Source: Haliclystus octoradiatus (Eukaryota; Cnidaria; Staurozoa; Stauromedusae; Haliclystidae). Taken from it: a stretch of 64,000 nt of DNA. Under the pieces are notes generated by a model that was not told the DNA's origin, made no database searches, and saw only the letters and a program-made list of their open reading frames with translations. Within the stretch, counting starts at the first letter, position 1, and each line of letters starts with the position of its first letter. Shown one piece after another: positions 4,771 through 34,935 of this stretch. The position numbers were made by a program, and so were the translations under genes. Location of the stretch: the NCBI GenBank assembly GCA_916610825.1, contig OU744453.1, positions 6,857,845-6,921,844 of the forward strand. The letters are read 5' to 3'.

Positions 4771-7700
4771 TCACTTATCTACTTATATTAATAATACTGT
4801 CTGTTTATATCTACTTATATTAATAATACTGTCTGTTTATATATCACAATATTTCTATATTTCTATATTTCTATATTTCGATATTTCGATATTTCGATAT
4901 TTCTGTGTCTGTCCGCGACTTATGTACGTCTTACTGGCGATATAATACGGATAATCCGTTGTCGGGAAATTATGCAAACATTTGTTTCGAGATAACCGTG
5001 TACAGTAACAAATTTGCTGTATGAAAAGTATGGGTCTATGACGTTGTTTTAAAATATTATACTTCATCAGATATTTTATTTGATATCCTTGCATTAAAAA
5101 ATTCAGAGATTTTGAAAAATTTCATAGGTCGATAATCTAGCGGGCAGCCAAATCGAAGTCAAATTGAAATCCCCAGAACAAAAATATTTTGCTTTGAATT
5201 TAAAAGCTGCGTGTAAATTGTTTGAACAAGTGAAACTTAAAACTGAATCAGTTTTATGATAATTAAAACAATACGAATTACTGAGTTACATTGAATTACC
5301 AATATAACTAGGCCAGACAAAATATGTTTTGAAATCAAAGAAACGTAGACCTATTTCATGTAGTGTTGATATCAGCAATACAAATAGCGCGGCACAAACG
5401 CTATGAAATTAAAGAGACTTTAGGTCTTAATTTAATTTATTAATGAAACCAAATGCCGTTCATTACTTTTACCAAAATCGAGATACAAAACATTTCACTC
5501 TTAAAAAGGCTATTTTGATATATAACTTGTGAGAACACTGAGCAAACAATCTGTTTTGAAATGAATAATCTATCGCGGGGCATAAAAACAAATTAACTTG
5601 CAAGAATTTTCAAAATGACGTTGGCGTTCGATCAATTCGAAAAATATTCAAAGTTCGAATAGATTATCTGTCTACAGTTTAAAATTATAGAGTTTAGAAT
5701 TAATCAAGGCATTGCACAAAAGTATTTCTATAATTTATTATTTAATATAAAAAAACGAATCATTTGGTTTTGAGCAGCAAGGCTTTTATTTTCAGATTTT
5801 GCTTCCATAAGTAACGAAGGAATTATAGGCATCGATAAAAATTAAAATTTCATTTTGTTGACTTGCTATACGAATAAGACACAGTATGTTACTACAGTTT
5901 CGAGAATAAAAATAGCGGTGTCTTGTTATTATCGTTGATCAACATTTAATAAAGTAAATTTCAGGTATATCAAATTTAACAAAGTTAAATTGAATTGAGC
6001 GTATGATTTGTGATAAATAATAATAATTATAATATTTTCAGCGTTCAAAAATTTTGCTTTGAATTTAAAAGCACAAAAACATAATTTAAAAACATTTTTA
6101 AATAGTTAATACAGTTTGGATGAGTGTAACAAACCTTGTGTTACAAAAATAAAAGGCGAAAAGGTTGCATGAAATAATCGATCATAGCAAACAATATTTA
6201 TTAAAATACAACTTACCATTTTCCAAATGAGATCCAAATAAAAACTATACGAGCGGCATAATCTCCGAACAACATTTAAATACATAATAGCGGGCTCTCT
6301 GAGTTAATACACCAATCAATAATAAGTTAACAACCATATTTTATCGAAGGAGAATGTACGCCCGATAAGAATAAAATAAAGATTGTCTTTTATTCGAAAT
6401 AATTCTGACAAAAATGATCATTTCATATCGTGATCAAATGCATGGTAAAGTAGATTCATTTTCTACATAGTAAATTATCCTTTTCGTCAGACATCATAAC
6501 ATGAGCATTTAATTATTACCATCGGCTGTGGTATTTATATCTTTGAAGCTGCACTAAACATTTCCACTCTATAAACCATCGCGTCCGTTTCAATAAATTC
6601 TGAATAAATATGCATATCACGAATCTGGCAAAATGAGTTGTTTTCGTTTTTCTATCAAAATAATTAATTTATTCATAATCATCTTTTCTTTCATTCGACA
6701 TCTGTAATGTATTATAAATAGCGCGTAGAAATATTGACAACAAGATGTAACATAATATCAATATCGAATTAGTATAGCGATTTATTATAGAATTTTATTT
6801 CCTTTTAAAAGAATGTTGATGCTATTAGTCTGGAAAATTTGATAACAAGAAGCACTATGAGGTCAACTTTTCACATCTTTTGTTTACTTTTAAAATTTTA
6901 TTTTCAACGAACTCTTAGTATTTTGATAGACTGCCATGAAAATCACAGGCATATTTGCTGAGATTGCAAAGATCAAAAATATATAGACTCATATAGTATC
7001 ATATCATAATATTTTCAGATCATATATATAATTTGAAATTCAATACACGCGCGTGGGTCGGCCTTGTTCAATAATACGTTGTCGAAGCAGTAGGTTTGTT
7101 TATAAGGTCAGTTAAAGCGCTGATATGAGTAAGTAACGGAGTGGCTAATTGGTTAATGCTCTTGTGTGATAATTTCAGGGTCGTCAGTTCAAATCCGCCA
7201 TTCGGCAACCTTTTATCAACGATTTTTCTTATTATTATTTAATATGAAGCAGTAAATCATTTTTAATTAACAAAAGATATCGTTTGATCATGTTAATAAC
7301 AGAAATCAGTGGACCATGTGTCTTGTTGAAGCTAAATTAATTTAATATTGAATGTATCGCATGCAATGCCACGAGTTTCACTGGCCACACTTTGACGGCG
7401 TTATTTTGTGAACAGCACATTAGTGTTGTATATATTGCAATAAAGATTTATGAATCCGAACCGAACGCGATCCGATCGTATCGGGTCAGATTCGGATTAA
7501 TATTTTAGGTCTTCGGATCGGATCGGATTTGAAGTGATTTTTTATGGATAGTTTCAGATTTCGAAATTTGACTAAGTATTTGTAATTATAATAATTAATG
7601 TGTTCTGGCCTCCTTTCAGCACATAAAATAAAGTTTTTCTATGTAGATATAGCTACGTTAAATTATACATTTCAATCGACTCAATTGATGTAAAATAAAT

Positions 7701-7895
7701 TAAACTTTTATCAAAGGAATGATTAAGATGTATTGATTAATGCTACATCGTTTCAATGCGTATTGTGTCTCATGATCTCCTCCAGAGTTCATACTCCGTA
7801 TTATACAGCGATAGTCAGCTTAGTCAATTGTTTAATTATAAGTGATCTGAAAGTTTTATCATAGAAGGTCCATAATGGACTACACTCATTGCTAG
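4771..7895 (+). mobile_element. Helitron unit 1
   Basis: Full-length unit with a doubled 5' segment: the stretch around CTACTTATATTAATAATACT occurs twice (about 4779 and 4818). It is followed by a short tandem run of TATTTCTA/TATTTCGA, a long non-coding body, a tRNA-like block at about 7130-7201, a GATCGGATCGGAT-rich patch near 7470-7530 and the 3' hairpin ending in CTAG at 7895. It joins unit 2 with no spacer. Confidence 0.85.
7130..7201 (+). other. tRNA-like / pol III promoter-like block in Helitron unit 1
   Basis: The block has an A-box-like GTGGCTAATTGGTTAATGC and, about 40 bp later, a B-box-like GTCAGTTCAAATCC. Matching blocks occur at about 12352-12422, 15432-15502 and 34175-34242 in the other complete units. 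No clean acceptor stem is visible, so this looks like a tRNA-derived (SINE-like) segment, not a functional tRNA gene. Confidence 0.5.
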
Positions 7896-10031
7896 TATCA
7901 CAATATTTCTATATTTCTATATTTCTATATTTCGATATTTCGATATTTCGATATTTCTGTGTCTGTCCGCGACTTATGTACGTCTTACTGGCGATATAAT
8001 ACGGATAATCCGTTGTCGGGAAATTATGCAAACATTTGTTTCGAGATAACCGTGTACAGTAACAAATTTGTTGTATGAAAAGTATGGGTCTATGACGTTG
8101 TTTTAAAATATTATACTTCATCAGATATTTTATTTGATATCCTTGCATTAAAAAATTCAGAGATTTTGAAAAATTTCATAGGTCGATAATCTAGCGGGCA
8201 GCCAAATCGAAGTCAAATTGAAATCCCCAGAACAAAAATATTTTGCTTTGAATTTAAAAGCTGCGTGTAAATTGTTTGAACAAGTGAAACTTAAAACTGA
8301 ATCAGTTTTATGATAATTAAAACAATACGAATTACTGAGTTACATTGAATTACCAATATAACTAGGCCAGACAAAATATGTTTTGAAATCAAAGAAACGT
8401 AGACCTATTTCATGTAGTGTTGATATCAGCAATACAAATAGCGCGGCACAAACGCTATGAAATTAAAGAGACTTTAGGTCTTAATTTAATTTATTAATGA
8501 AACCAAATGCCGTTCATTACTTTTACCAAAATCGAGATACAAAACATTTCACTCTTAAAAAGGCTATTTTGATATATAACTTGTGAGAACACTGAGCAAA
8601 CAATCTGTTTTGAAATGAATAATCTATCGCGGGGCATAAAAACAAATTAACTTGCAAGAATTTTCAAAATGACGTTGGCGTTCGATCAATTCGAAAAATA
8701 TTCAAAGTTCGAATAGATTATCTGTCTACAGTTTAAAATTATAGAGTTTAGAATTAATCAAGGCATTGCACAAAAGTATTTCTATAATTTATTATTTAAT
8801 ATAAAAAAACGAATCATTTGGTTTTGAGCAGCAAGGCTTTTATTTTCAGATTTTGCTTCCATAAGTAACGAAGGAATTATAGGCATCGATAAAAATTAAA
8901 ATTTCATTTTGTTGACTTGCTATACGAATAAGACACAGTATGTTACTACAGTTTCGAGAATAAAAATAGCGGTGTCTTGTTATTATCGTTGATCAACATT
9001 TAATAAAGTAAATTTCAGGTATATCAAATTTAACAAAGTTAAATTGAATTGAGCGTATGATTTGTGATAAATAATAATAATTATAATATTTTCAGCGTTC
9101 AAAAATTTTGCTTTGAATTTAAAAGCACAAAAACATAATTTAAAAACATTTTTAAATAGTTAATACAGTTTGGATGAGTGTAACAAACCTTGTGTTACAA
9201 AAATAAAAGGCGAAAAGGTTGCATGAAATAATCGATCATAGCAAACAATATTTATTAAAATACAACTTACCATTTTCCAAATGAGATCCAAATAAAAACT
9301 ATACGAGCGGCATAATCTCCGAACAACATTTAAATACATAATAGCGGGCTCTCTGAGTTAATACACCAATCAATAATAAGTTAACAACCATATTTTATCG
9401 AAGGAGAATGTACGCCCGATAAGAATAAAATAAAGATTGTCTTTTATTCGAAATAATTCTGACAAAAATGATCATTTCATATCGTGATCAAATGCATGGT
9501 AAAGTAGATTCATTTTCTACATAGTAAATTATCCTTTTCGTCAGACATCATAACATGAGCATTTAATTATTACCATCGGCTGTGGTATTTATATCTTTGA
9601 AGCTGCACTAAACATTTCCACTCTATAAACCATCGCGTCCGTTTCAATAAATTCTGAATAAATATGCATATCACGAATCTGGCAAAATGAGTTGTTTTCG
9701 TTTTTCTATCAAAATAATTAATTTATTCATAATCATCTTTTCTTTCATTCGACATCTGTAATGTATTATAAATAGCGCGTAGAAATATTGACAACAAGAT
9801 GTAACATAATATCAATATCGAATTAGTATAGCGATTTATTATAGAATTTTATTTCCTTTTAAAAGAATGTTGATGCTATTAGTCTGGAAAATTTGATAAC
9901 AAGAAGCACTATGAGGTCAACTTTTCACATCTTTTGTTTACTTTTAAAATTTTATTTTCAACGAACTCTTAGTATTTTGATAGACTGCCATGAAAATCAC
10001 AGGCCTGCTTGCTGAGATTGCAAAGATCAAA
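7896..10031 (+). mobile_element. Helitron unit 2, truncated at both ends
   Basis: It starts at TATCACAATATTTC, lacking the first roughly 30 bp of the unit, directly after the CTAG of unit 1. It is nearly identical to unit 1 over about 2.1 kb and stops at ...GCAAAGATCAAA near 10031. The distal roughly 0.9 kb, including the tRNA-like block and the 3' hairpin, is missing. Confidence 0.82.
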
Positions 10032-13000
10032 ATAAAAAAATAAATAATCAGATAAAGTATATTATTTTAAAACAACGTCATAGACCCATACTTTTCATAC
10101 AACAAATTTGTTACTGTACACGGTTATCTCGACACAAATGTTTGCATAATTTCCCGACAACGGATTATCCGTATTATATCGCCAGTAAGACGTACATAAG
10201 TCGCGGACAGACACAGAAATATCGAAATATCGAAATATCGAAATATAGAAATATAGAAATATAGAAATATTGTGATATATAAACAGACAGTATTATTAAT
10301 ATAAGTATTGTCCTTGCATTAAAAAATTCAGAGATTTTGAAAAATTTCATAGGTCGATAATCTAGCGGGCAGCCAAATCGAATTCAAATTGAAATCCCCA
10401 GAACAAAAATATTTTGCTTTGAATTTAAAAGCTGCGTGTAAATTGTTTGAGCAAGTGAAACTTGAAAATGAATCAGTTTTATGATAATTAAAACAATACG
10501 AAATACTGAATTACATTGAATTACCAGTATAAATAGGCCAAACAAAATATGTTTTGAAATCAAAGAAACGTAGACTTATTTCATGTAGTGTTGATATCAG
10601 CAATACATATAGCGCTGCACAAACGCTATGAAAATTAAAGAGACTTTAGGTCTTTAATTTATAAATGAAACAAAATGCCGTTCATTACTTTTCACAAAAT
10701 CGAGATACAAAACATTTCACTTTTAAAAAGGCTATTTTGATATATAATTTGTGAGAACACTGAGCAAACAATCTGTTTTGAAATGAATAATCTATCGCGG
10801 GGCATAAAAACAAATTAACTTTCAAGAATTTTCAAAATGACGTTGGCGTTCGATCAATTCGCAAAATATTCAAAGTTCGAATAGATTATCTGTCTACAGT
10901 ATAAAATTATAGAGTTTAGAACTAATCAAGGCATTGCACAAAAGTATTTCTATAATTTATTAGTGAATATAAAAATATGAATCATTTGGTTATGAGCAGG
11001 CAGGCTTTTATTTTCAGATTTTGCTTCAATAATTAACGAAGGAATTATAGGCATCGATTAAAATTAAAATTTCATTTTGTTGACTTGCTATACGAATAAC
11101 ACACAGTATGTTACTACAGTTTCGAGAATAAAAATAGCGATGTCTTGTTATTATCGTTGATCAACATTTAATAAAGTTAATTTTTTCAGGTATATCAAAT
11201 TCAACAAAGTTAAATTGAATTGAGCGTATGATTTGTGATAAATAATAATAATTATAATATTTTCAGCGTTCAAAAATTTTGCTTTGAATTTAAAAGCACA
11301 AAAACATAATTTAAAAACATTTTTAAATAGTTAATACAGTTTGGATGAGTGTAACAAACCTTGTGTTACAAAAATAAAAAGCGAAAAGGTTGCATGAAAT
11401 AATCGATCATAGCAAACAATATTTATTAAAATACAACTTACCATTTTCCAAATGAGATCCAAATAAAAACTATACGAGCGGCATAATCTCCGAACAACAT
11501 TTAAATACATAATAGCGGGTTCTCTGAGTTAATACACCAATCAATAATAAGTTAACAACCATATTTTATCGAAGGAGAATGTACGCCCGATAAGAATAAA
11601 ATAAAGATTGTCTTTTATTCGAAATAATTCTGACAAAAATGATCATTTCATATCGTGATCAAATGCATGGTAAAGTAGATTCATTTTCTACATAGTAAAT
11701 TATCCTTTTCGTCAGACATCATAACATGAGCATTTAAATATTACCATCGGCTGTGGTATTTTATATCTTTGAAGCTGCACTAAACATTTCCACTCTATAA
11801 ACCATCGCGTCAGTTTCAATAAATTCTGAATAAATGCATATCACGAATCTGGCAAAATGAGTTGTTTTCGTTTTTCTATCAAAATAATTAATTTATTCAT
11901 AATCATCTTTTCTTTCATTCGACATCTGTAATGTATTATAAATAGCGCGTAGAAATATTGACAACAAGATGTAACATAATATCAATATCGAATTAGTATA
12001 GCGATTTATTATAGAATTTTATTTCATTTTAAAAGAATGTTGATGCTATTATTCTGGAAAATTTGATAACAAGAAGCACTATGAGGTCAACTTTTCATAT
12101 CTTTTGTTTACTTTTAAAATTTTATTTTCAACGAACTCTTAGTATTTTGATAGACTGCCATGAAAATCACAGGCCTGCTTGCTGAGATTGCAAAGATCAA
12201 AAATATATAGGCTCATATACTATCATATCATAATATTTTCAGATTATATATAATTTGATTTTCAATACACGCGCGTGGGTCGGCTTTGTTCAATAATACG
12301 TTGTCGAAGCAGTAGGTTTGTTGACCACTTCAGTTAAAGCACCGATAACAAAAAGTAAGGTAGTGGCCGATTGGTTAATGCCCTGGTATTTCAATATCAG
12401 GGTCGTCAGTTCAAATCCGCCATATTGCAATTTTTATCAACGATTTTTCTGATTTTTTTTAATATGAAGCAGTAAATCATTTTTAATTAACAAAAGATAT
12501 CGTTTGATCATGTTAATAACAGAAATCAGTGGACCATGTGTCTTGTTGAAGCTAAATTAATTTAATATTGAATCTATCGCATGCAATGCCACGAGTTTCA
12601 CTGGCCACACTTTGACGGCGTTATTTTGTGAACACCACATTAGTGTTGTATATATTGCAATAAAGATTTATGAATTCGAACCGAACGCGATCCGATCGTA
12701 TCGGGTCAGATTCGGGTTAATATTTTAGGTCTTCGGATCGGATCGGATTTGAACTTATTTTTTGTGGATAGTTTCAGATTTCGAAATTTGACTGAGTATT
12801 TGTAATTTATAATAATTGTGTTCTGGCTTCCTTTCAACACATAAAATAAAGTTTTTCTATGTAGACAAAGCTACGTTAAATTATACATTTCAATCGACTC
12901 AATTGATGTGAAATAAATTAAATTTTTATTAAAGGAATGATTAAGATGTATTGATTAATGCTACATCGTTTCAATGCATATTGTGTCTCATGTTCTCCTC

Positions 13001-13113
13001 CAGAGTTCATACTCCGTATTATACAGCGATAGTCAGCTTAGTCAATTGTTTAATTATAAGTGATCTGAAAGTTTTATCATAGAAGGTCCATTATGGACTA
13101 CACTCATTGCTAG
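10032..13113 (+). mobile_element. Helitron unit 3, with inverted 5' end
   Basis: Bases about 10040-10310 are the reverse complement of the unit's first roughly 275 bp (compare 13114-13395). From TCCTTGCATTAAAAA at about 10311 the unit continues in the normal direction to CTAG at 13113. The 5' segment therefore appears inverted in place. The rest is almost identical to unit 4. The tRNA-like block is at 12352-12422 and the terminal hairpin just before 13113. Confidence 0.83.
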
Positions 13114-16100
13114 TCTACTTATATTAATAATACTGTCTGTTTATATATCACAATATTTCTATATTTCTATATTTCTATATTTCGATATTTCGATATTTCG
13201 ATATTTCTGTGTCTGTCCGCGACTTATGTACGTCTTACTGGCGATATAATACGGATAATCCGTTGTCGGGAAATTATGCAAACATTTGTGTCGAGATAAC
13301 CGTGTACAGTAACAAATTTGTTGTATGAAAAGTATGGGTCTATGACGTTGTTTTTAAAATAATATACTTCATCTGATAATTTATTTGATATCCTTGCATT
13401 AAAAAATTCAGAGATTTTGAAAAATTTCATAGGTCGATAATCTAGCGGGCAGCCAAATCGAATTCAAATTGAAATCCCCAGAACAAAAATATTTTGCTTT
13501 GAATTTAAAAGCTGCGTGTAAATTGTTTGAGCAAGTGAAACTTGAAAATGAATCAGTTTTATGATAATTAAAACAATACGAAATACTGAATTACATTGAA
13601 TTACCAGTATAAATAGGCCAAACAAAATATGTTTTGAAATCAAAGAAACGTAGACTTATTTCATGTAGTGTTGATATCAGCAATACATATAGCGCTGCAC
13701 AAACGCTATGAAAATTAAAGAGACTTTAGGTCTTTAATTTATAAATGAAACAAAATGCCGTTCATTACTTTTCACAAAATCGAGATACAAAACATTTCAC
13801 TTTTAAAAAGGCTATTTTGATATATAATTTGTGAGAACACTGAGCAAACAATCTGTTTTGAAATGAATAATCTATCGCGGGGCATAAAAACAAATTAACT
13901 TTCAAGAATTTTCAAAATGACGTTGGCGTTCGATCAATTCGAAAAATATTCAAAGTTCGAATAGATTATCTGTCTACAGTATAAAATTATAGAGTTTAGA
14001 ACTAATCAAGGCATTGCACAAAAGTATTTCTATAATTTATTAGTGAATATAAAAATATGAATCATTTGGTTATGAGCAGGCAGGCTTTTATTTTCAGATT
14101 TTGCTTCAATAATTAACGAAGGAATTATAGGCATCGATTAAAATTAAAATTTCATTTTGTTGACTTGCTATACGAATAACACACAGTATGTTACTACAGT
14201 TTCGAGAATAAAAATAGCGATGTCTTGTTATTATCGTTGATCAACATTTAATAAAGTTAATTTTTTCAGGTATATCAAATTCAACAAAGTTAAATTGAAT
14301 TGAGCGTATGATTTGTGATAAATAATAATAATTATAATATTTTCAGCGTTCAAAAATTTTGCTTTGAATTTAAAAGCACAAAAACATAATTTAAAAACAT
14401 TTTTAAATAGTTAATACAGTTTGGATGAGTGTAACAAACCTTGTGTTACAAAAATAAAAAGCGAAAAGGTTGCATGAAATAATCGATCATAGCAAACAAT
14501 ATTTATTAAAATACAACTTACCATTTTCCAAATGAGATCCAAATAAAAACTATACGAGCGGCATAATCTCCGAACAACATTTAAATACATAATAGCGGGT
14601 TCTCTGAGTTAATACACCAATCAATAATAAGTTAACAACCATATTTTATCGAAGGAGAATGTACGCCCGATAAGAATAAAATAAAGATTGTCTTTTATTC
14701 GAAATAATTCTGACAAAAATGATCATTTCATATCGTGATCAAATGCATGGTAAAGTAGATTCATTTTCTACATAGTAAATTATCCTTTTCGTCAGACATC
14801 ATAACATGAGCATTTAAATATTACCATCGGCTGTGGTATTTTATATCTTTGAAGCTGCACTAAACATTTCCACTCTATAAACCATCGCGTCAGTTTCAAT
14901 AAATTCTGAATAAATGCATATCACGAATCTGGCAAAATGAGTTGTTTTCGTTTTTCTATCAAAATAATTAATTTATTCATAATCATCTTTTCTTTCATTC
15001 GACATCTGTAATGTATTATAAATAGCGCGTAGAAATATTGACAACAAGATGAAACATAATATCAATATCGAATTAGTATAGCGATTTATTATAGAATTTT
15101 ATTTCATTTTAAAAGAATGTTGATGCTATTATTCTGGAAAATTTGATAACAAGAAGCACTATGAGGTCAACTTTTCATATCTTTTGTTTACTTTTAAAAT
15201 TTTATTTTCAACGAACTCTTAGTATTTTGATAGACTGCCATGAAAATCACAGGCCTGCTTGCTGAGATTGCAAAGATCAAAAATATATAGGCTCATATAC
15301 TATCATATCATAATATTTTCAGATTATATATAATTTGATTTTCAATACACGCGCGTGGGTCGGCTTTGTTCAATAATACGTTGTCGAAGCAGTAGGTTTG
15401 TTGACCACTTCAGTTAAAGCACCGATAACAAAAAGTAAGGTAGTGGCCGATTGGTTAATGCCCTGGTATTTCAATATCAGGGTCGTCAGTTCAAATCCGC
15501 CATATTGCAATTTTTATCAACGATTTTTCTGATTTTTTTTAATATGAAGCAGTAAATCATTTTTAATTAACAAAAGATATCGTTTGATCATGTTAATAAC
15601 AGAAATCAGTGGACCATGTGTCTTGTTGAAGCTAAATTAATTTAATATTGAATCTATCGCATGCAATGCCACGAGTTTCACTGGCCACACTTTGACGGCG
15701 TTATTTTGTGAACACCACATTAGTGTTGTATATATTGCAATAAAGATTTATGAATTCGAACCGAACGCGATCCGATCGTATCGGGTCAGATTCGGGTTAA
15801 TATTTTAGGTCTTCGGATCGGATCGGATTTGAAGTGATTTTTTGTGGATAGTTTCAGATTTCGAAATTTGACTGAGTATTTGTAATTTATAATAATTGTG
15901 TTCTGGCTTCCTTTCAACACATAAAATAAAGTTTTTCTATGTAGACAAAGCTACGTTAAATTATACATTTCAATCGACTCAATTGATGTGAAATAAATTA
16001 AATTTTTATTAAAGGAATGATTAAGATGTATTGATTAATGCTACATCGTTTCAATGCATATTGTGTCTCATGTTCTCCTCCAGAGTTCATACTCCGTATT

Positions 16101-16880: not shown

Positions 16881-16903
16881 ATTAATTATAATTTGCTGTA
16901 ATT

Positions 16904-17443
<540 letters not shown>

Positions 17444-21130: not shown

Positions 21131-24100
21131 CTATAACACATAAAAAAACTAATTAGAACACCAATCATCGACACAATCAAGCATGATGTGAAGCCATACG
21201 GTCATTTGTTTTGAAATAGTGTCAGAGTTTGGGTATGTAGCCTATGCAACTTGATAATTTTAACAAAATTTTGAAAAACTATATAACAACAAAAATTCAG
21301 ATTTATTATCAAAACACTTTTATTGAAAAAATTTACCTGGAAGATTTGTTTTATTATTATTTTTAATTAGAATACTTGTCTACCTTATTATGAGTTGCAA
21401 TGAATATGCATATTGTGCTAATGGCATAACCTGATAACGCTCGAAGATATTAGGATTTTCTCATAAACTTCAATAAATTTACTGGGTAGTTGAGCAGTTG
21501 AACCAAAGGTTATTCTTCTTACCGGCATGCAGCACCGAAACGAGGACAATTGTTTTAAAGAGCAATTCCAAAGATATCCGGGACAGTTTGGGTCCGGGAA
21601 TTTGCCGGATGTGTTCCCATAACAACGCAATTAAATTTCACGCTTCTGGTTTAATGAAGTGGTTTCAGTTCGGCTAATTTACAATATATTCCTGTGTTAT
21701 TCAATGTTAAGAAAACCATATGGTCTTTGTTTGCCACGCAGAGTTTGTCTGTCAGATTTAGATTTTCATTTCAATTTTGATCAATTGTATACCAACTCCT
21801 TGGAGAAATATTATCATTTAAAGCAGCAATCAGTGTTATAAAATACTTTCAATATCAATGAAATATAAATCAAATCGAAAATAATGATTTCATAAACATA
21901 GAAAGTTTAAATTTTTTACGTCAATTTTCGGGAAAATGCTTTCCCGGGACTCTACTTTTGGTCTGATTCCCGGGACTCATTGCGATGCCCAAATATATAC
22001 ATTATAACTTTAATGGACAGATTCAGGAATAATCCGTAAGTAAATATTTACCTATTAACTGAAGTAAAGCTGTGAACTTATATTGTTTCAAAATCTGAAC
22101 ACGTTCTGATTATTTGTAAACTCTCTGCCACCTTCAATTGGTTCAATGTGAAAATGTCAAACACATCATGCATGTATTTGCATAATTGAAACCCCCATGG
22201 CATTGCAAAACCTGCCCCACAAAACAAATTTAATCCGCCCGGGTGAGGGGAACACTGATTTTACAATCCCTCTCCCCAATGGTCGGATATATTCCTCTTT
22301 TTCCTGTACTGTAGAATATGTTATGTAAATAATGCACAGAAAGGCTTACTGAATCCGAATTATGATGCAACATTTGATAGATCCAAAGCGAATAATGTAT
22401 TTAATATATAGGGTAATACAGTGAAACCTGTATATAACGGCCAGTTACCAGAGGTAGATGAATTGACCACTATAGACAGGTGACCTTTATATACAGGTTT
22501 GATTCAATAGAAAATACTCTTTTAGACATTGCAAGAGTGACCATTATAGACAGGTGGCCACTGTATAGAGGTGATCGTTATAACAGGTTTGACTGTATAA
22601 GTAATGACTGCATAGCAACAAAATTCATTAATGTGGAGACGCTGTGTCTGTGAAAGTTTATTATAAATATATATTCGTTTTTATAAAAAGCACAGTCCCT
22701 GGGGTTTCCCCGGGGGTAAACATGAAAATTTGCAAATGAAATCAAAGCCATTACCAGGCACCCTCTTCTGAGAAAAACTAACTCCTCCCCCTGGGAGCCC
22801 AGGAGTCAACTCCAGGGAAGCTCTGCGACATGCATTAACTGTGTTCCAAAGCTTTAAAGATAATTAGATAACTACAACAATATTTTAAGTTGTGACAAAA
22901 ATAATTTGGATAACACAACTTATACAAAGTTTTTATTTACTGCCCACAACCTTTCTCTCTCACATACTTTTTGAGCTCTTGCTTTCAATCTCTATGCACC
23001 TTACAAACTCTTGCATTTTACCTTACTCAATTTACGTCCTGGCTGTTATTTGTACAAAGGCATGGGAGATAGTATCCTAACCAAGTTAAGACGCAGTAAA
23101 ACAATATCAACCAAGTTACGCTCTTAGTATAGTTTTTTATTGCTTAATGATATTACATTTATTGTTTATAAGTCTGAAGTCATGATAAATTTTTACAGAT
23201 AAAATTTTTTTTTTCTCAAATGTAATATGTTTGTTATTATTGCTTGGACGGTAAAAGAAAATTAATAGAAGCCTACTTCTTGAGAATTTGAGGTATCAAT
23301 ATCCTGCATATCAAAACTGGGGATGTACAGAAAACAGACAGAGATTCCATAAATCAGACGTGCCCATCAACACAGATTTTGTGAAGAATAGGCCTACCAA
23401 TCTTATTTGCAGGATGTTAATAAAATGGGAAACATTGGTAGCAGGCACATTTTGAAAACAATCAAATTACGACAGGCAAAACTTTTAAAATTGAACAAAG
23501 TTCCATGGTTATTGCATTGTTATATTTCAGATGTTTTTGAAATAATAATTGAACATAGTCTGGGCATTAGACTGGTTCAAAAAAAAGAAGTTTATAATGT
23601 TTGAGGCACTAATCACTTAAACATTTGTTTTCTTTGAACCAGTCTACTGGACATATTAAAGATATTATCAAAAGTAGGCCTACATTAGAGTGCTTCCATT
23701 CCCAGTAAAATAACCATGAATACAATTGGTAGATTGGAGCAATCGTAAATGATTTGACATACCTGTTATATTTTATTCCTCTCTTTTACTTTCAATAAAA
23801 ATGATGCCGCACTTTTTCTGATATCAATATCCATTTTTTCTGAAGGCTAAAAGGTTAACAAAACAATTATCAATCATCATGAAGAATCTTAATAATAGGC
23901 TACCATTGATTTCATTATATGAGAATTGCACATTTTAAACACAAATTGTTGCTATATATGTGTCATCCAGTCAGCAAAACCAACTGCCTTCAACCTGTAT
24001 GCAGAACTGTGACAGCACATGTGTAATTCTTGACAATCATAATTTTAATATTATAATAAAGCATACAATTTGTATGTTTTCACATTATTCTGTGGTCATC

Positions 24101-24819
24101 AGACAAGAAATGCTTTGAAGATGTATTATTTTTGTACATGCTTAGATTGTTGAGTAAACATATTTTATTTTTTAAGTTAGCTGCTATAAGAAATATTAGG
24201 AAGCCTTCAAAATTTCGGGGAACATGAACAAATCCATCATTCATTAATAGGCTATTATTTTTTTTATTTCAATTTAGTTTAGGCATATATATAGCCCTAT
24301 CTTTGAAAGTTTCAAAATCGCAAATGTTTTTAACTTGACTTTTATGGTTAGATATAGACTGAGCGTCATATATTTGTACAACACTACATGCTGTGCTTTA
24401 TTGTAGTGCAATGAAATTCCTTGAAATATTTTGACGTTTTTGCCTGCTTTATAGCTCTGAAATGACTTTGAAGAAACTTTTGGTACTGAAATCCGATGAT
24501 ATCTAATAGAGACTGTTAATACTGAAGCTTTTGATTGGGTTTTATGAAAAGAAAAACTGCGGTACAGTATTGAGTAGTGAAAAGTATTCATTAAAGTATT
24601 GAGTAGTGAAAAGTATTACAGGAAGGTATAGTTTCAAATTAACAGCAAGCTCATAAAACCTACAATCAGACGCAGTGTTGATATCTAAGTGCCTATGGTG
24701 TGTCTACTTTTGACTGTGGCCCATTTGTAATTTTAATGACAAAAGCATAGGCAAGGCCTAATGATCTGATAACTGAGACAACACAGATAGGCCTACGATA
24801 GTAAATAGTTCAAACTTAC
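21131..24819 (-). other. Intron 1 of the EnSpm-like transposase gene
   Basis: On the minus strand it begins GTAAGT at 24819 and ends TATAG at 21131. It holds a Tigger-like small element (22419-22595) and otherwise non-coding AT-rich DNA, with two CCCGGGA/CCCCGGGGG-like patches (21935-21980 and 22695-22810). I see no other gene in it; scattered short ORFs have no motifs. Confidence 0.7.
22419..22595. mobile_element. Tigger/pogo-like MITE 1 (177 bp)
   Basis: TIRs CAGTGAAACCTGTATATAAC and, inverted, CAGTCAAACCTGTTATAACG are flanked by TA on both sides (22417-22418, 22596-22597). TIRs of the CAGTCAAACCTCTATATAACG kind with TA duplication belong to the pogo/Tigger branch of Tc1/mariner. No ORF. 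Confidence 0.8.
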
Positions 24820-25230
24820 TTGGCATGCTGTACCAGGATCTGAATCACTGTCAGTATCTTTATACTCAGATTCCGGATCTTTATCAAAGTTTTCTCCGCT
24901 TGAGTAAGAATAGCCAGGAGAGGAACATATATCTTCATTATTATCAACTTCCATAATCTCAGACGCAACTTCTGTTGAGTTATATTCCAGTGTATGCTTT
25001 CGTTTAGTGTGCCGATATAGTGAGTTGTGTTTAATAAACACGGAAGGACAACCATTGACTCTGCAAGTAACTTTGAATTGAAGGTCATTGCCATGAAAAA
25101 TGTTATAGTGACTAACAAGACATTTCAAACTAATTGACTGGAATTCTTCGCACAACTGGCACTTGAAAATTTGTTTTTGCACAAAGTTGGCTGCATGGTC
25201 TGCCATTACATAATAATGAGCTGTTTCCAA
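24820..25230 (-). CDS. EnSpm/CACTA-like transposase, exon 1 (C2H2 zinc fingers, acidic linker)
   Basis: The ATG at 25230 opens a 137-codon exon that ends with the donor CAA|GTAAGT at 24820/24819 in phase 0, matching the acceptor at 21130. Residues about 24-48 form CQLC...H.....H and residues about 58-79 form CRVNGC...H....H, two C2H2-like fingers. An acidic Ser/Asp/Glu-rich linker follows (EVDNNEDICSSPG, DTDSDSDPGTACQ). N-terminal fingers would plausibly bind the element's terminal or subterminal repeats; this is inference. The bidirectional arrangement with the gene starting at 26013 leaves about 780 bp between them for shared control. Confidence 0.8.
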
Positions 25231-26012
25231 TATACTTTATTCCAATTTTAAAACTCGACATAAAATGGAAATTTGAAATAGAGATGTTGATTATGTTGCT
25301 ACGCCATGTCGGAGGTTAACAGGAAATAACTAGCAGCAGATCTCACAAGGTCGAGATTGGAGAACCCATGGTGAGATCTCAGTCAGTGAGACAGCGATGT
25401 TTCCATGGCCTTCCATCACATTGCACAATCAAGTGCAAACCATTCTATTGTGTTAGTGCTTTAACGGATTTCAATATGAAATGTTTTTCCCCACATTATT
25501 CTTTGCTACTATATATTTTCATAATGTTTTTACCAAGTTGAAATCTTGAATTTCAAACAGATTCTCATTAAATTTCAATTGCAAATTAGTAATTACTACG
25601 AACTGCGGCCCTATGCGGTTGTCTCAGATTCATTGATATCAAAGCGAGGCTACGCGTGCGCAGTTTCCATTCTTCAGTCGTACCGCTCAATTTCAAAAAT
25701 GACAGATTGACAGTTGACATTATATGTTTGATGAAGGTTTTGAATGATGTAAATTTATGCCTGTTACTGATTGCTGAGCACAATTTTCAAAGCATAATAC
25801 GTGATGTTAGTTCTGTTGCGTTTTTGCCAATGAGTCAGTTCTATGGTTCCATGATGCTATATATTTGACTGCTTGGTTTGATCTGTTTGGTTAGAGCTGG
25901 CATCACTGTGATTCTGACATAAGATTGTTATTGGTACTGAAACATTCGCATGAGATTTCCTGTCCAAATTGTTTTGATGATATTGGTCTGACTGACCTGA
26001 CATGGCATAAAA
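25231..26012. promoter_or_regulatory. Putative bidirectional intergenic region between the two EnSpm-encoded genes
   Basis: The transposase gene starts leftward at 25230 and the accessory gene rightward at about 26013. No clear TATA box or coding segment was found. A short inverted pair, CAGATCTCAC (25337-25346) and GTGAGATCTC (25371-25380), lies near the transposase start. The promoter role is inferred only from the divergent arrangement. Confidence 0.35.
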
Positions 26013-29010
26013 ATGAAGCATACGCTTGTTCTAAAACAGTATCATCTGGCTGCTATTTGGAACAGACCAAAGAACGCTAAGAAACAGATTTGTCATTGTA
26101 GAAGTAGTCAACTCACTACGAAAGAAATGTCTTACAACCTTTTGGCCAAGTTGAACGAGCTAGGAAGAGATGTTTCAAAAAAGTTTGAAGGTAAGGAAGC
26201 ACATCCTATTTATTTAACGCAACTGTTATTGTTTTACTGACTGACGAATGCCTATTTCGTGTTCGATTGTGCGAAGTGTTCAATGTTATTTTCATTTCAT
26301 TGTAAATAAATGTGATTAGGATTTAAGCCTACATTTAAACTGTGAATAATATAAATAACATTGATTATGAAATGCAATAGATCACAATTACAAACTGATG
26401 TTCAATGTAATCTCAAATCTTCATGTTTCACACGAATGAATTTTTTCAACATCTTTTAGATTTTATAGATGACGATGAAGTGTTTGATCTGTGCTATGAA
26501 AGTCTTGCGGAAATGTTTCCTGGGTCAAATAAAGAAGCCCTCAGAACAAAATCCAAAGTTTGGAAGCTTATAACTGAAGCAAAGGTAAAACTAAGTGATA
26601 ATGATGATAGAAGGTAAAACTTTCATCCTGTTGTCGTTGTGAATCCTCGCTTTTTTATATCCATATTTATTACATTTTATTTCTATAAAATATCATTGTT
26701 ACTATCACTGTATTAATAATATTAATGATAAATGGGATAGTAGTATAGATCCTATCCTATTATTATTATTAATAACTGTTATTTTTATTACTACTGTAAT
26801 TTCATTATAACTGAGTCAAAGGCTACACAATAATTTTCTGTAACTTGATTTTTAAGTAACAAAAACATTTTAGTGTTATCTTTGACTATATTATTATTAT
26901 CGCTCTTCCAGATGACACTAAGCATAAGAATAAGAGATCATTATTATTATTACTTTATTATTACTTATTACTGTATTAATTATTAATTTTTAATATGCTT
27001 TTCAATGCTACATGAATCTATGATAGTATTTTCTTATTGTTAGAATATTCAGTGTTGATATTCATTTATGTTTATAGTAGTAGCCTAGCCAATCACATGC
27101 CAGGAAAAGGCTTTTGCCTGATCTTTTTTTTAGTTCTATATTTATAGTAGCCTTCATGTTTCAATATATGATATTTTTATTTCAGCATAATGGGGCAAAA
27201 CCAGAGTCCACAACTGCAATTGTCGATGAAGAGAAAGGAACAAATTGTGTTCACTCGCAGTCTGCTAATCTAGATGATTCTGAGATGACAATCAAAGTTG
27301 ATGACCCAGTCACTCACTTCAGCTCAAATTCTACTCTGGTAAAAGATAGCAAAGTTGTTGTTCGGTCACCAGAATTTTCAGTCCGCAGAGATAAATTTAT
27401 TGAAGCTGCTTCAAGGGAAGGAGAAATACCTAAAGAAATACGCAAAAAATATTTCCGAGATGTGGTTACAAACATGATAGCAGATGCCTATGCTGAGCCA
27501 TTCAACCGTGATCCTTCAATGCACGAATTCAAAGAAATGGCCAAATCTATCCTCTCAGTCTATCCACTTTTAGGTGGCAATGGTCATTCACATGTAAGTG
27601 TAGCATGCAATTGTTCCCTTAATGAATAAAGATATGTATACAGTCAAACCTGTTATAACGGTCACCTTTATACAGTGGTCACCTGTCTGTAGTGGCCAGT
27701 TTATTCACCTCTTATAGCTGGCTGTAATATCAATGTTTCACTGTACATATTTTTACAACTACCTTTGTCTTTCATTAACCAAACTGCGTTTTGCATTTAT
27801 TTTCAGAATGAAATTTTCAAGGAGTTGAGAAAGCGTTACCACAATGTAAAAGACAACCAGAAGAATGGGGCTGAAAGGAAGCGCCGCAAATCCGCAGCAT
27901 CTCAAAATAATGAGCCAATTGCAAAGAAAGGGACAAATGAAATGGCGAATAATGGGCATTGTAGTTCTCCTTCACCAGAACGCAGTAACGCAGAAGTTGA
28001 ATCACAGAATTCTCCTTGTAGTGATGGTATGTAGTCTTCATTAGTCTTGAATTTATCTCTGAAATAATCCCTGCGCCCATAATTTATAATATCCATAACG
28101 CATTCTATGGACATAGATGTTGCGCTTTTATTTTTCTTCTTGTCTTGATACTTTTTTTTAATATTTGAAACAATTGTTTAATGTCAATTCCAGTCTGTTC
28201 TAATTGTAAATACAATTGATTATTTTGAATTTGTTATAATTGTAGGCTACTCATAATATACTTCATGTTTTCTCTTTCACTCATTTTTATGTATACAATT
28301 TTTAGAGCAACATCCAATGCCATCCTATCCAATCGAAATGATGGAGCGACAGCACAAAACAATGCTGAAAGAGTTGAAGAAGAAAAATCCAGATTTGAAT
28401 GAAATTGATCGCTACTTGGACTTAAGTTTCATATCCCGGAGGAAATGGGTAACATCCTTAAACGGTACTACAAGATGCCATGAAGTGCTTCAAAAATATC
28501 CTTGCTTTAGATCTCATATACAGGTAATAATTGCTCATAATTTTCATAAAAATATCTGTATATAGCCAATGCATTACCATATTATAACAGATTGTCCATG
28601 TCTGTTTCTTCAGATTGTTGAGGAAGCTAGGAGAGTTCTGGGAAAGTTGAAAGGATCTACAAGTTTTCTATCTCAATGTACGATGAAGTTGAAGGAGGAA
28701 ATTGATCAATTGATCTATTTTGGTGTTGCTGAAGGAAACATCAAACATTCCAAAAGCCCAAATCTCAGTAAGTTATTTTAAAATATTATAAATAGGACTC
28801 ATGCTGAAATATTATTTAAATGTGAAAGAAATTACGTAATTATCCTGAAGAAGAAGAATGAATTACAGAGAGTTTCATTAACGATCCTTAATTTACAAAT
28901 TTTCAGTAATAGCTATGTTTGATTCTAATAATAATAATAGTGAGAAGGTCAAGAAAGACACATTCTTTGGTTTGGGAGTTACAACCAAAGAATGTGTCTT
29001 TCTTGACCTT

Positions 29011-29085
<75 letters not shown>

Positions 29086-29124
29086 TTATTATTATTTTTA
29101 TTATTATTATTATTATTATTTTTG

Positions 29125-29165
<41 letters not shown>

Positions 29166-29197
29166 GTTATTGTTATTGTTATTGTTATTATTTATTA

Positions 29198-29290
<93 letters not shown>

Positions 29291-31662
29291 TACGCTCTGC
29301 TATTCACTAGCATTGAGCACTATCCAATTGCCGATATTGAGTTTTAATATTTCTAATATATTTGATTCTATACATCAATAACATTTATTTAAATATTTTA
29401 CACATCACAGGTTCAAAGGTTCTTCACATCCTTGAAAATTTTCCTGCCATGTTCCCTGGGAAATATTCAAAGTCGTCAAAGAATCTCTGTGGCATTTTTC
29501 ACATCTTGGAGGTAAGATAACTCTTGTACTCTTGTAACTCTGTACCAGCTGGGCCTGAACTACTTTTCATGCCTTAACCGCCCTTTGAGACATGTCTTCT
29601 GTTTATACAAAAACCTTTCCTGTTCATCCTTTGTTTAACATAATGTTAATTGATAGTGTAGCGGTTATGAAACAGACGACCAGTTATCATCAAATACCTG
29701 AAAATTTACTAAAAATGTAATGTTTTCTACTTATTCCGTTAATACATACAACCACATATCAAAATGACATAGTGTACATCATGCACAATATTATCAATTA
29801 TCCACCATACCTGTTTCTTCTTGTAAATATTTTACAGTCCAACCTCTAAATAACATCTATCTATGTGATGTAGCTAATTTGACCATAATATGCAGGTGAC
29901 GTTTACTAAATGCTGATTTACTAGAAAATATCATTTCAAACATTAAAATAGTGACCATTATAGACAGATGCCCACTGTATAGAGGTGACCATTATTACAG
30001 GTTAGAAGAATGCACTTCAACTTAAGGAAGACATGATTTTTAGTGCAATAAAAATTAAGTATTTTCATCCAACTACATATCTGTGAATAAAATATTACAA
30101 TTGTGTGATCGGATTCATACTGACAATTATAGCTTTCTGATCAGATTATGTATGATTGAAAATATTTTACGTTGTTTAATAAAAAATTTTGAACCGGAAT
30201 AATTTTAAAGACCATAAAATGACCAGCAGCCTTTGTATATTTTTGTCTTTGAAATCTGGACCCAGATTTCAATCACTCGTTTTCATGATGCACGGCCCGC
30301 CTCTGTGTCTCCTTTGCACACACGCGCGATTTTGCAAAACATTTCGTAAAACGAAAATGGAAGCATTCTGTTATTTCAAGTTATTTATCAACGAACTGGT
30401 TTGGAAAGTTGCAAGAGCAACAGAGGTGGACGTCGTAAGGGCTTTCGACGCTTGAATAAATGTGTACCACGAAAATCAATTCACTTGCTACTAGCGTCAT
30501 ACGAATTGAGGAAGGAAAACGGAGTTGAAAGCTACAACTGAACTCGACTGGTGATTCAAAATTTCATGTTGGTGTGTACTTGATACAAGAATATTAGGGA
30601 TTGAAAGAACGGGAAGAGATTTGTTAGTATTCAAAATCGAAACTTATCGCCGAAACAAAATGAAATTATAACACTATGCAGGTGAATTCGATTTTTAATA
30701 CGGATACTTTGATCATTGACTCCAAATTATGTTTGTAAACACGTAGGCTTCGTCTAAAAATAGTTCGTTACATACCTATGTATGTTTTATATTGCATTGT
30801 TTTTCTGCAGTATATATGCACGTAAATTTTAAAATTTAGAATCATATGAATTTATTTAGTGTTGATTTGAAAGTACATTTTATCCAAGTTGTTTTGATTT
30901 GCGTCAAACTTCTCAGACAGATAATCGGACTGTGACTCCCATTCCGCTATTTATTTTTGAGCCGTATACATTTGTTGGCTATCTATAGCCATAGACTTGC
31001 GTTTCGACAAGTAAGAATTCAATTGAGAATTATCCAAAATTGAAATTGATAAACCAGACTATTTTCTCGGGCTTTCTGTCGTGTCTTTCCATAGCAACAG
31101 CCACGAGGACAATCCTCTGACGTGAGCGCTGACGTCACTTTCCAGAGGATCAGCCTCGTTTCTTTTAATCAAGACAACAAAACAAAGCAAAGGCTGCTGG
31201 TCATTCGAAACTCTTTAATCTTGAGTTTCGGATCAGATCAGATGTCAAATAGGTCTTACCAGTTTTTAATTCACTGAAAATCCAATCCAACGTACACCTC
31301 TATCATACATCATTATATGTGATTATAATTGAATTTTTTTTACTTTACAGGACAATGAAGACCCTGATGTTGTTTTAAACAAAAGAAAATCTGATTCCCC
31401 TATGATATTAGTGAAAGATGACATAAGTATTGTCTACGGCAAAGAGATTGTTACAAGAGTATCACTAAAAGATTCTGCAGAAGCATTGATCTGCTACTTG
31501 TGCCTTCATTATGTATTGAACATTGATTACGAAACAGCCAATGAACAAAGTCTCTATTTCCTACAGTTTGTATTAATTGGTGATACCAATGTCCCTGGAG
31601 ATATACATAAAAGTTTTATGCTATCTTTAGAGAAGTATAATAAATTCAAATCTGAATTTTAG
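26013..31662 (+). CDS. EnSpm-encoded accessory protein, eight exons
   Basis: Exons that join in phase: 26013-26190, 26460-26584, 27186-27593, 27807-28026, 28306-28523, 28614-28767, 29411-29511 and 31351-31662 (stop). All introns are GT-AG. The predicted protein is about 570 residues, charged, with no signal peptide or membrane segment and with a Lys/Arg-rich patch (GAERKRRKSAASQ) that could be a nuclear signal. Later exons contain KYPCFRSHIQIVEEARRVLG, NFPAMFPGKYS, LCGIFHILEDNEDPD and ALICYLCLHYVLNIDYE. This layout resembles, from memory, a family of transposon-linked proteins in fish and cnidarians annotated as SAMD3-like. The start is the first ATG after an in-frame stop at 26007; an upstream 5' exon is possible. 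It has no internal stops, so it may still be functional. The role in transposition is unknown. Confidence 0.75.
27641..27743. mobile_element. Tigger/pogo-like MITE 2 (103 bp)
   Basis: It starts CAGTCAAACCTGTTATAACG and ends with the complement of CAGTGAAACATTG, flanked by TA. It lies in intron 3 of the accessory gene and shares TIR and body words (GACAGGTGACC) with MITE 1. Confidence 0.75.
28941..29014. repeat. Perfect 32-bp inverted repeat with 10-nt loop
   Basis: The left arm (28941-28972, starting TGAGAAGGTCAAGAAAGACA) is exactly complementary to 28983-29014, with a 10-nt loop. The outer flanks, AATAATAATA and ATTATTATT, extend the pairing. It lies in intron 6 of the accessory gene. Confidence 0.95.
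29014..29290. repeat. (ATT)n microsatellite, about 277 bp
   Basis: ATT units with several ATTTT, TTTTTG and ATTGTT interruptions. It is complementary in sequence to the (TAA)n run at 16904-17443. The long Ile/Leu/Tyr frames across it are not genes. Confidence 0.95.
29835..30005. mobile_element. Tigger/pogo-like MITE 3 (decayed, about 170 bp)
   Basis: It begins with TA then CAGTCCAACCTCTAAATAAC and carries the same inner words (ATAGACAGATGCCCACTGTA, GAGGTGACCATTAT) as the other two copies. The right end is degraded (ACAGGTTAGAAG). It lies in intron 7 of the accessory gene. Confidence 0.65.
30006..31350. other. Rest of intron 7 of the accessory gene, no gene seen
   Basis: Non-coding DNA. The only notable structure is an imperfect inverted repeat at 31103-31159 (ACGAGG.ATCCTCTG facing CAGAGGAT.CCTCGT) around a TGACGTCA-like core. 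The ORF at 30189-30455 has no recognisable motif. Confidence 0.5.
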
Positions 31663-31789
31663 GCTTGTAATTTTTATTCATTTGTTCATATTCTATTTTA
31701 TAATTTTAATTATTTGTAAAGTAATATCCATTTGTTTTAATTTTTATTTGAAAATTACATTGTTTCTGTTATGTTAATTTACTTTGTGT

Positions 31790-32345
31790 TAAATACCATG
31801 TCAGTGATCAGTATGATGCTTAAAACAAGAATGTATTGCGTGCTTGACTCAAGCAGAAAAGTATATTTTTCAGTTAGCAGAACAACTTATTTCCAGCAGC
31901 GATATACTTAAAACAAGAATAAATTTGACTCAATTTGAGCAAGAAATTTTACTTGGCAAGCAAATAAGGAACTGACTTTAAGCAAGCGTGTGCTTCAAAC
32001 AAGCATAAACAGTGCTAATTTTAAGTAAAAAAATGGATTGGTAGGCAATTACAGAGCTTATTTCCAGTATATGTATACTTAAAACAAGAACGTTGTTGGT
32101 AAGGTGTATATAAAGTAACTTAAATCTAGCATACCAGTGCTTAAAACTGGTCGTTAATGACTGATTTCAAGAAGAAATCTGATTCACGAACTTGCTTATT
32201 TTTAGAATGGATATGCTAACCATGGGATTCTTATCAAGAAATAGATGCTTACCCCATGGACAAGATTTTTATACTTATTATAAGAATTATTTTGCTTAAT
32301 ATAAGCAATATTTTGCTTGAAATAAGTTATTCATTTTTTGCTGTG
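31790..32345. repeat. Right TIR and subterminal repeats of the EnSpm-like element
   Basis: At least five diverged copies of a motif like ATACTTAAAACAAGAAT (near 31818, 31906, 31990, 32077 and 32139), plus ATTCTTATCAAG and palindromic TTGCTTAATATAAGCAA. The end is the complement of CACAGCAAAAAATGAA. It mirrors the left subterminal region. Confidence 0.78.
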
Positions 32346-34935
32346 TAGGCCAAACAAAATATTTTTTTGAAATCAAAGAAACGTAGACCTATTTCATGTA
32401 GTGTTGATATCATCAATACATATAGCGCGGCACAAACGCTATGAAAATTAAAGAGACTTTAGGTCTTAATTTAATTTATTAATGAAACAAAATGCCGTTC
32501 ATTACTTTTCTCAAAATCGAGATATAAAACATTTCACTTTTAAAAAGGCTATTTTGATATATAATTTTTGAGAACACTGAGCAAACAATCTGTTTTGAAA
32601 TGAATAATCTATCGCGGGGCTTAAAAACAAATTAATTTGCAAGAATTTTCAAATTGACGTTGGCGTTCGACTAGTTCGAAAAATATTCAAAGTTCGAAGA
32701 GATTATCTGTCTACAGTCTAAAATTACAGAGTTTAGAATCAATCAAGGCATTGCACAAAAAGTATTTCTTTAATTTATTATTTAATATAAAAACATGAAT
32801 CCTTTGGTTTTGAGCAGGCAGGCTTTTATTTTCAGATTTTGCTTCCATAATTAACGAAGGAATTATAGGCATCGATTAAAATTAAAATTTCATTTTGTTG
32901 ACTTGCTATACGAATAAGACACAGTATGTTACTACAGGTTTGAGAATAAAAATAGCGGTGTCTTGTTATTATCGTTGATCAACATTTAATAAAGTTAATT
33001 TCAGGTATATCAAATTTAACAAAGTTAAATTGAATTGAGCGTATGATTTGTGATAAACAATAATAATTATAATATTTTCAGCGTTCAAATATTTTGCTTT
33101 GAATTTAAAAGCACAAAAACATAATTTTAAAACACTTTTAAATAGTTAATACAGTTTGGATGAGTGTAACAAACCTTGTGTTACAAAAATAAAAAGCGAA
33201 AAGGTTGCATGAAATAATCGATCATAGCAAACAATATTTATTAAAATACAACTTACCATTTTCCAAATGAGATCCAAATAAAAACTATACGAGCGGCATA
33301 ATCTCCGAACAACATTTGAATACATAATAGCGGGTTCTCTGAGTTAATACACCAATCAATAATAAGTTAACAACCATATTTTATCGAAGGAGAATGTAAG
33401 CCCGATAAGAATAAAATAAAGATTGTCTTTTATTCGAAATAATTCTGACAAAAATGATCATTTCATATCGCGATCAAATGCAAGGTAAAGTAGATTCATT
33501 TTCTACATAGTAAATTATCCTTTTCATCAGACATCATAACATGAGCATTTAAATATTACCATCGGCTGTGGTATTTTATATCTTTGAAGCTGCACTAAAC
33601 ATTTCCACTCTATAAACCATCGCGTCCGTTTCAATAAATTCTGAATAAATATGCATATCACGAATCTGGCAAAATGAGTTGTTTTCGTTTTTCTATCAAA
33701 ATAATTGATTTATTCATAATCGTCTTTTCTTTCATTCGACATCTGTAATGTATTATAAATAGCGCGTAGAAATATTGACAACAAGATGTAACATGATATC
33801 AATATCAAATTAGTATAGCGATTTATTATAGAACTTTATTTCCTTTTAAAAGAATGTTGATGCTATTATTCTGGAAAATTTGATAACAAGAAGCACTATG
33901 AGGTCAATTTTTCACATCTTTTTTTTACTTACAAAATCTTATTCTCAACGAACTCTTAGTATTTTGATAGACTGCCATGAAAATCACAGTCCTACTTGCT
34001 GAGATTGCAAAGATTAAAAATATATAGGCTCATATACTATCATATCATAATATTTTCAGATTATATATATAATTTGATTTTCAATTACACGCGCGTGTGT
34101 CGGCCTTGTTCAATAATGCGTTGTCAAAGCAGTAGGTTTGTTGATGACGTCAGTCAAAGCGTCTTTAATAATAAGCAAGGCAGAGGCTCATTGGTTAATG
34201 CTCTGGCATCACAATATGAGGGTCGTCAGTTCAAATCCGCCATTCGGAAAATTTTTATCAACGATTTTTCTTATTTTTTTTAATATGAAGCAGTAAATCA
34301 TTGTTAATTAACAAAAGATATCGTTTGATCATGTTAATAACAGAAATTAGTGGACCATGTGTCTTGTCGAAGCTAAATCAATTTAATATTGAATATATTA
34401 CATGCGATGCCACGAGTTTGACCGGCCTCACCTTGACGGCGTTATTTTGTGAACACCACATTAGTGTTGTTTGTATTGCAATGAAGATTTATCAATCCGA
34501 ACCGAACGCGATTTGATCGTATCGGGTCAGATTCGGGTTAATATTTTAGGTCTTCGGATCGGATCGGATTTGAAGTGATTTTTTATGGATAGTTTCATAT
34601 TTCGAAATTTGACTGAATATTTGTAATTCATAATAATTAATGTGTTCTGGTTTCCTTTCAGCACATAAAATAAAGTTTTTATATGTAGAGATAGCTACGT
34701 TAAATTATACATTTCAATCGACTCAATTGATGTGAAATAAATTAAATTTTTATTAATGGAATGATTAAGATGTATTGATTAATGCTACATCGTTTCAATG
34801 CGTAGTGTCTCATGTTCTCCTCCAGAGTTCATACTCCGTATTATACAGTGATAGTCAGCTTAGTCAATTGTTTAATTATAAGTGATCTGAAAGTTTTATC
34901 ATAGAAGGTCCATTATGGACTACACTCATAGCTAG
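32346..34935 (+). mobile_element. Helitron unit 5, 3' part, and terminus of the array
   Basis: It resumes TAGGCCAAACAAAATAT as in the other units and continues through the tRNA-like block (34175-34242) and the GATCGGATCGGAT patch near 34556-34568. It ends with the hairpin and CATAGCTAG at 34935, followed by T of the target site. It is more diverged from units 1-4 than they are within their pairs. Confidence 0.86.

Follow-up and report, generated by a model that had tools for sequence, protein, structure and literature searches.

Data-mining evidence cited in favour of rolling-circle transposition includes head-to-tail arrays of Helitrons (PMC5876387), and tandem repeats made by that route were argued for in bats by Pritham and Feschotte (as cited in PMC2267711). 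Two other accounts invoke insertion of one element into or beside another. In Fusarium oxysporum, composite elements were explained by self-insertion, after which the stretch between the leftmost 5′ end and the first 3′ end would transpose, and one insertion lay 2 bp upstream of the 5′ end of another copy (PMC5148889). For adjacent maize elements, the authors proposed, in opposition to such tandem repeats, insertion at the A/T formed by the host A and the T of the resident (PMC2267711). Here we describe an array of canonical Helitron units, joined head-to-tail at an A^T site, in a stretch of 64,000 nucleotides from Haliclystus octoradiatus (assembly GCA_916610825.1, contig OU744453.1, positions 6,857,845–6,921,844, forward strand; hereafter the window), together with its family across the genome (262 Mb in 33 contigs searched). 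An earlier note on this DNA had offered two origins for the array: either it was inserted once as a concatemer, or it grew serially at one site. We consider it very probable that such arrays, that of the window included, grew by serial same-orientation self-insertion into the AT-rich left ends of resident family copies. Serial growth is thus retained and the single concatemer, which neither the leftover 5′ fragments nor the mixed relationships of the units support, is not; the point of growth lies mainly inside the resident 5′ end.

The array in the window and its leftover 5′ fragments

The array lies on the plus strand, with the host A before position 4771 and a T after 34935, as the earlier note had it. 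The precise CTAG|TC joints at 13113/13114 and 16193/16194 and the CTAG|TATCAC joint at 7895/7896 are likewise present as described. The array is real, but its 'five units of about 3.08 kb' are two full units, one that is 3′-truncated, one with an inverted start and one split by an insert. At the left edge stand two stacked pieces that had been overlooked, an outermost fragment TCACTTA (4771–4777) and a 32 nt copy of the element's 5′ end (4778–4809), and it is such stacked fragments that discriminate nested insertion from a concatemer. The first full start is at 4810, and the full unit that begins there (4810–7895) is nested in a resident whose left part is the 32 nt fragment and whose 3′-truncated remainder continues at 7896–10032. 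There follow a unit whose first ~270 bp (10038–10307) are inverted (10038–13113), a full unit after the first precise joint (13114–16193) and, after the second, the rightmost unit (16194–34935), of which 16194–16669 and 32346–34935 are separated by an insert of ~15.7 kb (16670–32345). The 3′ terminus is a hairpin with a 6-bp stem, then CTAG (34904–34935; folded in the common form of this end).

A paralogous duplication flanks the array (1–4771 / 53665–58432 and 34936–38808 / 58432–60700, 92–97% identical), and its other copy holds the empty site. The claim of a precise empty site stands, with its position at 58431/58432, two bases away from the 58433/58434 given before: the joined flanks are identical to the paralogue across the 41 bases tested, and the BLAST alignment of flanks and paralogue covers 1,212 columns at 96.5% identity with six gap openings, none inside those 41 bases. 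The assignment to Helitrons holds as well. The 5′ TC, the 3′ hairpin with CTRR (here CTAG), insertion at A^T without target duplication and a Rep and PIF1 partner with the same ends are features of canonical Helitrons (Helitron1), and all are found here; insertion at A^T departs from the Helitron2/Helentron rule of insertion between T and T (PMC5148889). Array and partner units start with TCACTT or TCTACTT, and a few deviate, for example TTACTTA.

Under serial self-insertion, a newcomer would land at an A^T in or at the first ~100 bp of a resident, whose first bases would remain to the left of the newcomer and whose rest would follow the newcomer's CTAG. A precise CTAG|TC joint would record a landing at the A|T between the host A and the TC of the resident. 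Stacked fragments would then be carried along within a single element that begins at the outermost TC and stops at the first CTAG, and 5′ ends would thereby grow by accretion.

Both sides were read for 27 arrays, taken from the best genome matches or because 3′ ends lay ~3 kb apart or had been retrieved at a self joint. A prefix that stops at the class demanded by the first junction was present in 18 of the 24 arrays entered in the class test (mean 8.4 in 200,000 permutations, p = 5e-6); the other three were A6 and A20, with an unclassable first junction, and A16, with an exact boundary. In a stricter, letter-for-letter comparison, prefix plus junction suffix reproduced an intact 5′ end found elsewhere, repeat counts included, in 12 of 26 arrays (mean 3.7 in 20,000 permutations, p = 5e-5). 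The window is among these 12, since 4778–4809 joined to the suffix at 7896 gives an intact 5′ end known at two other loci. On C14, a stack of TCACTTA, a piece ending in TTTATA and a full start is answered by junctions at TATCAC and then TATACAT, a last-in-first-out order, and one (TACTA)n repeat stands on both outer flanks of that array. Four pieces left between consecutive units at C2:4.36 Mb join up again into an intact 5′ end.

Three loci (L004, L007 and L011) have elements whose 5′ fragments are stacked and whose right flank is not family sequence, and the composite start TCACTTA|TCTACTTATATT of the window recurs after a CTAG at C10:2043128. The element at L011 (C1:6404982–6408009) is very short, its 3′ end lying ~60 bp past the 5′ anchor.

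Joints across the genome and the choice of target

The 3′ end of the family, sought with up to two mismatches, occurs 821 times in the genome and a shorter exact version 496 times, the reversed controls giving 0 in each case. At one locus, L110 (C2:2938500–2938621), two 3′ ends stand tail to tail ~10 bp apart. At least 193 of the 496 exact ends (39%) abut a family 5′ end, a count made with joint patterns that overlook mutated ends (as at L111) and in which a six-letter match alone could in a few joints be due to chance. The letters that follow are TATYWC in 137 (TATCAC or TATTTC in 98 of the 100 listed), with a small number of TATCAC joints consisting of TA plus a whole TCACTT start rather than an internal point (L021, L046). 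They are TATACATAATACTG or TATTAATAATACTG in 42, and in 14 they are TC(T)ACTTA, which makes these the precise CTAG|TC joints; most other self joints start within the AT-rich 5′ end. Among the first 100 perfect 3′ ends listed, 96 were classified, 40 of them as self ends in the same orientation (13 of L009–L038, one of L100–L139 and 26 from the joint-pattern listings) and 56 as not, and no opposite-orientation joint was seen in the 70 of those 3′ ends that were scanned directly. Five of 76 matched-pattern joints hold two to four extra bases (TA, TATA or TAA) between CTAG and the full TC start, which we read as host flank.

A target matrix was built from 64 non-self right flanks and 29 left flanks, with two right and two left set aside. 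T occupies +1 in all 64 right flanks, in line with the A^T insertion that the earlier note had proposed; A at −1 was the rule by which left flanks were selected and so is no test of a preference for A. The favoured target is A^T followed by ~12 AT-rich bases, with an AT content of 92% at +2..+12 and 76% at −12..−2 compared to a background of 66%. Within the family's 5′ end, the five best same-strand sites, TCTA^TATTTC (score 9.9), CACAA^TATTTC (9.4), TCTACTTA^TATT (8.4), TTTATA^TATCAC (8.4) and TCACTTA^TATA (7.1), are the observed break classes, and the best opposite-strand site scores 7.4.

The simplest explanation would be that the 5′ end is a cluster of good AT-rich A^T sites that needs no special recognition. 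The breaks do fall at the best-scoring same-strand sites, and Helraiser favours AT-rich DNA, most of all on the 3′ side (PMC4778049), the same skew as here. We nevertheless regard plain preference as an unlikely account of the self joints. For 500–1,500 copies the matrix predicts 0.2–0.9% self-hits, against which the observed 39% is an excess of roughly 40- to 200-fold, as judged with a small matrix that includes some microsatellites and a background drawn from the window, and with some joints copied by duplication. About a fifth (~20%) of the hits should be in the opposite orientation, whereas the matched patterns gave 76 joints in the same orientation and 0 in the opposite one. With an arbitrary filler as flank, the exact boundary scores only −3.5 or 3.0, but it was used 14 times; two pairs of these exact-boundary joints are common to the window and C10:6.69 Mb. 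Together, the excess, the single orientation and the hits at the boundary suggest that resident left ends are presented by an enzyme that recognises them.

A Rep/helicase relative, anticipated in the earlier note, was found in the form of a Rep/PIF1 partner of 19.5–19.8 kb (19,827 bp on C4, 19,826 on C7 and 19,525 on C8, from left start to CTAG). A genome search with PF14214 returned 54 matches, with seven loci tied at E 6.4e-48. The C4 copy carries the Rep frame, whose sole match in the PDB is the Helraiser chain 7lcc_A (E 7.9e-69), and the C7 copy shows PIF1 helicase matches across two consecutive frames; in the 5.1 kb upstream of the array at C10:6.69 Mb, where the partner was also sought, there is no helicase frame. 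The partner has its left and 3′ ends in common with the 3.08 kb element, which matches it over positions 1–2446 (95.4%) and the last 59 bp (90%) and looks like its deletion derivative. Two of the four partner 3′ ends that were read run into a family 5′ end, and the C4 copy itself interrupts a resident 5′ end; put back together, the two sides of that end give exactly the commonest intact form.

We incline, by a little, to the view that the excess of self-hits arises because the Rep of the partner binds or nicks the left ends of residents. A more detailed scheme, to which we give slightly less than even weight, is that left ends are a preferred landing pad: Rep would bind and nick them in place, on the strand on which transposition starts, and incoming strands would join there, giving one orientation, extra hits at A|TC and growing 5′ ends. 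Plant and bat arrays might then be largely self-targeting as well, rather than products of rolling-circle overrun.

Relationships among units and other routes of growth

Compared pairwise over 1,250 bp, 32 units show a median identity of 96.5%. Nine pairs of neighbours could be compared (95.9, 96.0, 96.2, 96.5, 97.3, 98.2, 98.4, 99.2 and 99.9%); the comparison 13207/16262 (64.9%) was left out, as its second unit is the one split by the 15.7 kb insert. For seven of the nine pairs, at least one unit has an equally close or closer relative among the units of another array. Units at unlinked loci are up to 100% identical, which points to recent activity. Ten precise joints were fetched, two of them without a located second 3′ end, and the remaining eight were comparable over the last 540 bp. 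Six of these eight dimers are only 94.3–96.4% alike, two of the six looking like one duplicated case, and within the window the units flanking joint 16193 are 94.97% alike. High identity between neighbours in the window was considered as a sign of a concatemer and rejected, as units 4903 and 7957 are 99.92% alike and yet a unit on C4 matches the second at 100% identity. Movement of arrays as dimers was set aside too, with just one candidate pair between loci (L022/L031).

Several results weigh against serial self-insertion into left ends. The class test failed in six of 24 arrays (A8, A10, A14, A18, A19 and A22), although visual inspection suggests mutated starts in A8 and A22. Many left edges carry more fragments than the array has joints, so that the added step of composite elements is needed; in the window, no complementary suffix for TCACTTA (4771–4777) was found within the array, and this unpaired piece would fit a composite start. 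The 14 joints at the exact boundary lie at a site that the matrix scores poorly. Two of the eight precise dimers are 99.8 and 100% alike (their units are also 100% identical to a unit on C7), the units flanking joint 13113 are 99.63% alike, and the other two of the nine neighbour pairs, both in the L026–L028 array, are mutually closest.

The last of these results indicates that local duplication also acts. L026 and L027 have a common junction with 99.9% identity on both sides, and at C11:12979428–12987781 four similar junctions are spaced ~2.77 kb apart, probably through local duplication of a shortened unit. Both precise joints of the window also recur, together with a similar inverted piece of ~270 bp (C10:6691920–6692189), in the array at C10:6.69 Mb, 165 kb from that of the window, and part of the array must therefore have been duplicated. 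That unequal crossing-over or local duplication was the main route by which arrays were enlarged after a first tandem pair seems improbable, however. Among 24 junction contexts, only two pairs are more than 99.3% alike on both sides and 18 junction texts differ, junctions inside an array usually differ, and the process yields neither 5′ fragments nor new junction types.

Homologous recombination of circular intermediates with residents bears on the precise CTAG|TC joints only. Exact joints would be expected from it, circles are known for Helitrons (PMC4778049), and precise joints are more numerous than the boundary score suggests. The truncated joints with fragments that form the bulk of the 193 lie beyond its reach, and we strongly doubt this route.

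A rolling-circle concatemer, in which the transposase overruns the 3′ terminator and a multimer with exact or alternative starts inserts once, we judge extremely unlikely: for all that Helraiser forms circles with exact head-to-tail joints (PMC4778049), that 14 precise joints exist genome-wide and that joint 13113 and two other precise dimers join near-identical units, only 14 of the 193 self joints are precise, units made on one template should be alike and the edges free of complementary 5′ fragments, which is the reverse of what most neighbour pairs, precise dimers and left edges display, units on C1 match the left unit at 13113 with 100% identity, and five joints carry extra bases before the next TC. 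For most joints examined, fragment complementarity and unit relationships rule it out. The direct joining of 3′ to 5′ ends that the earlier note had ascribed to rolling-circle overrun is in most joints CTAG|T inside the 5′ end; joint 13113 is compatible with overrun, and a concatemer at that single joint may have occurred but is required by nothing. In support of serial self-insertion, the sequences themselves show the complementarity of fragment and suffix, the mixed relatives, the site preference, the one-sided orientation and the Rep/PIF1 partner with the same ends.

Other features of the window and comparison with known Helitrons

The 15.7 kb insert in the last unit has inverted ends (CTACACAGCAAAAAATGAA) with TA at both edges and looks like a cut-and-paste DNA transposon. 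It contains a (TAA) run of ~180 copies and 56-bp tandem repeats (16899–18514) and large minus-strand frames (18948–21124) without a Pfam match. Of seven window frames searched against Pfam, two contain reverse-transcriptase domains, a 936-aa endonuclease/reverse-transcriptase frame at 43480–46290 and a frame with a weak match at 63039–63947, and five have no match. Related frames of 143–144 aa at 49186 and 53895, assigned to the flanking paralogous duplication, are among those without one.

The joints of the family, at least 193, carry a record of their own making, as the leftover 5′ fragments tell which copy was struck, where and often in what order. The sample read points to serial self-insertion as the main route, and the target rule leaves the one-sided excess unexplained. 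This connects, in a way that can be tested, a Helitron enzyme's recognition of its own end with its choice of targets. We found no report of orientation-locked left-end targeting in the literature on tandem, nested, composite and self-inserting Helitrons that our searches covered, which took in few subscription papers.

The closest likeness is to the composite Helitrons of Fusarium oxysporum, which have several short 5′ termini and one 3′ terminus (PMC5148889). The Fusarium elements are non-canonical, Helitron2-like and few in number, whereas the present family combines canonical TC...CTAG ends with long arrays, an orientation that is one-sided, a target matrix and no fewer than 193 joints. 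Adjacent maize Helitrons are joined head-to-tail by the same CTAG|TC, although the case is one pair of unlike elements with no nesting within a 5′ end (PMC2267711). Helraiser resembles the family in its TC and CTAG ends, its insertion at A^T and its AT bias on the 3′ side (PMC4778049, PMC5876387), and differs in that new insertions were not seen to cluster near donor sites (PMC4778049). Plant centromeric Helitrons also form tandem arrays, of truncated elements, which were explained by circles (Xiong et al., 2016, as cited in PMC5148889), in contrast to the serial self-insertion favoured here. Published accounts therefore already include self-insertion that is nested and leaves several 5′ termini, as well as insertion at the A|T boundary of a resident (PMC5148889, PMC2267711); what the Haliclystus family adds, as far as literature searches show, is the scale, a record that can be read letter for letter, a rule for the target and the one-sided excess.

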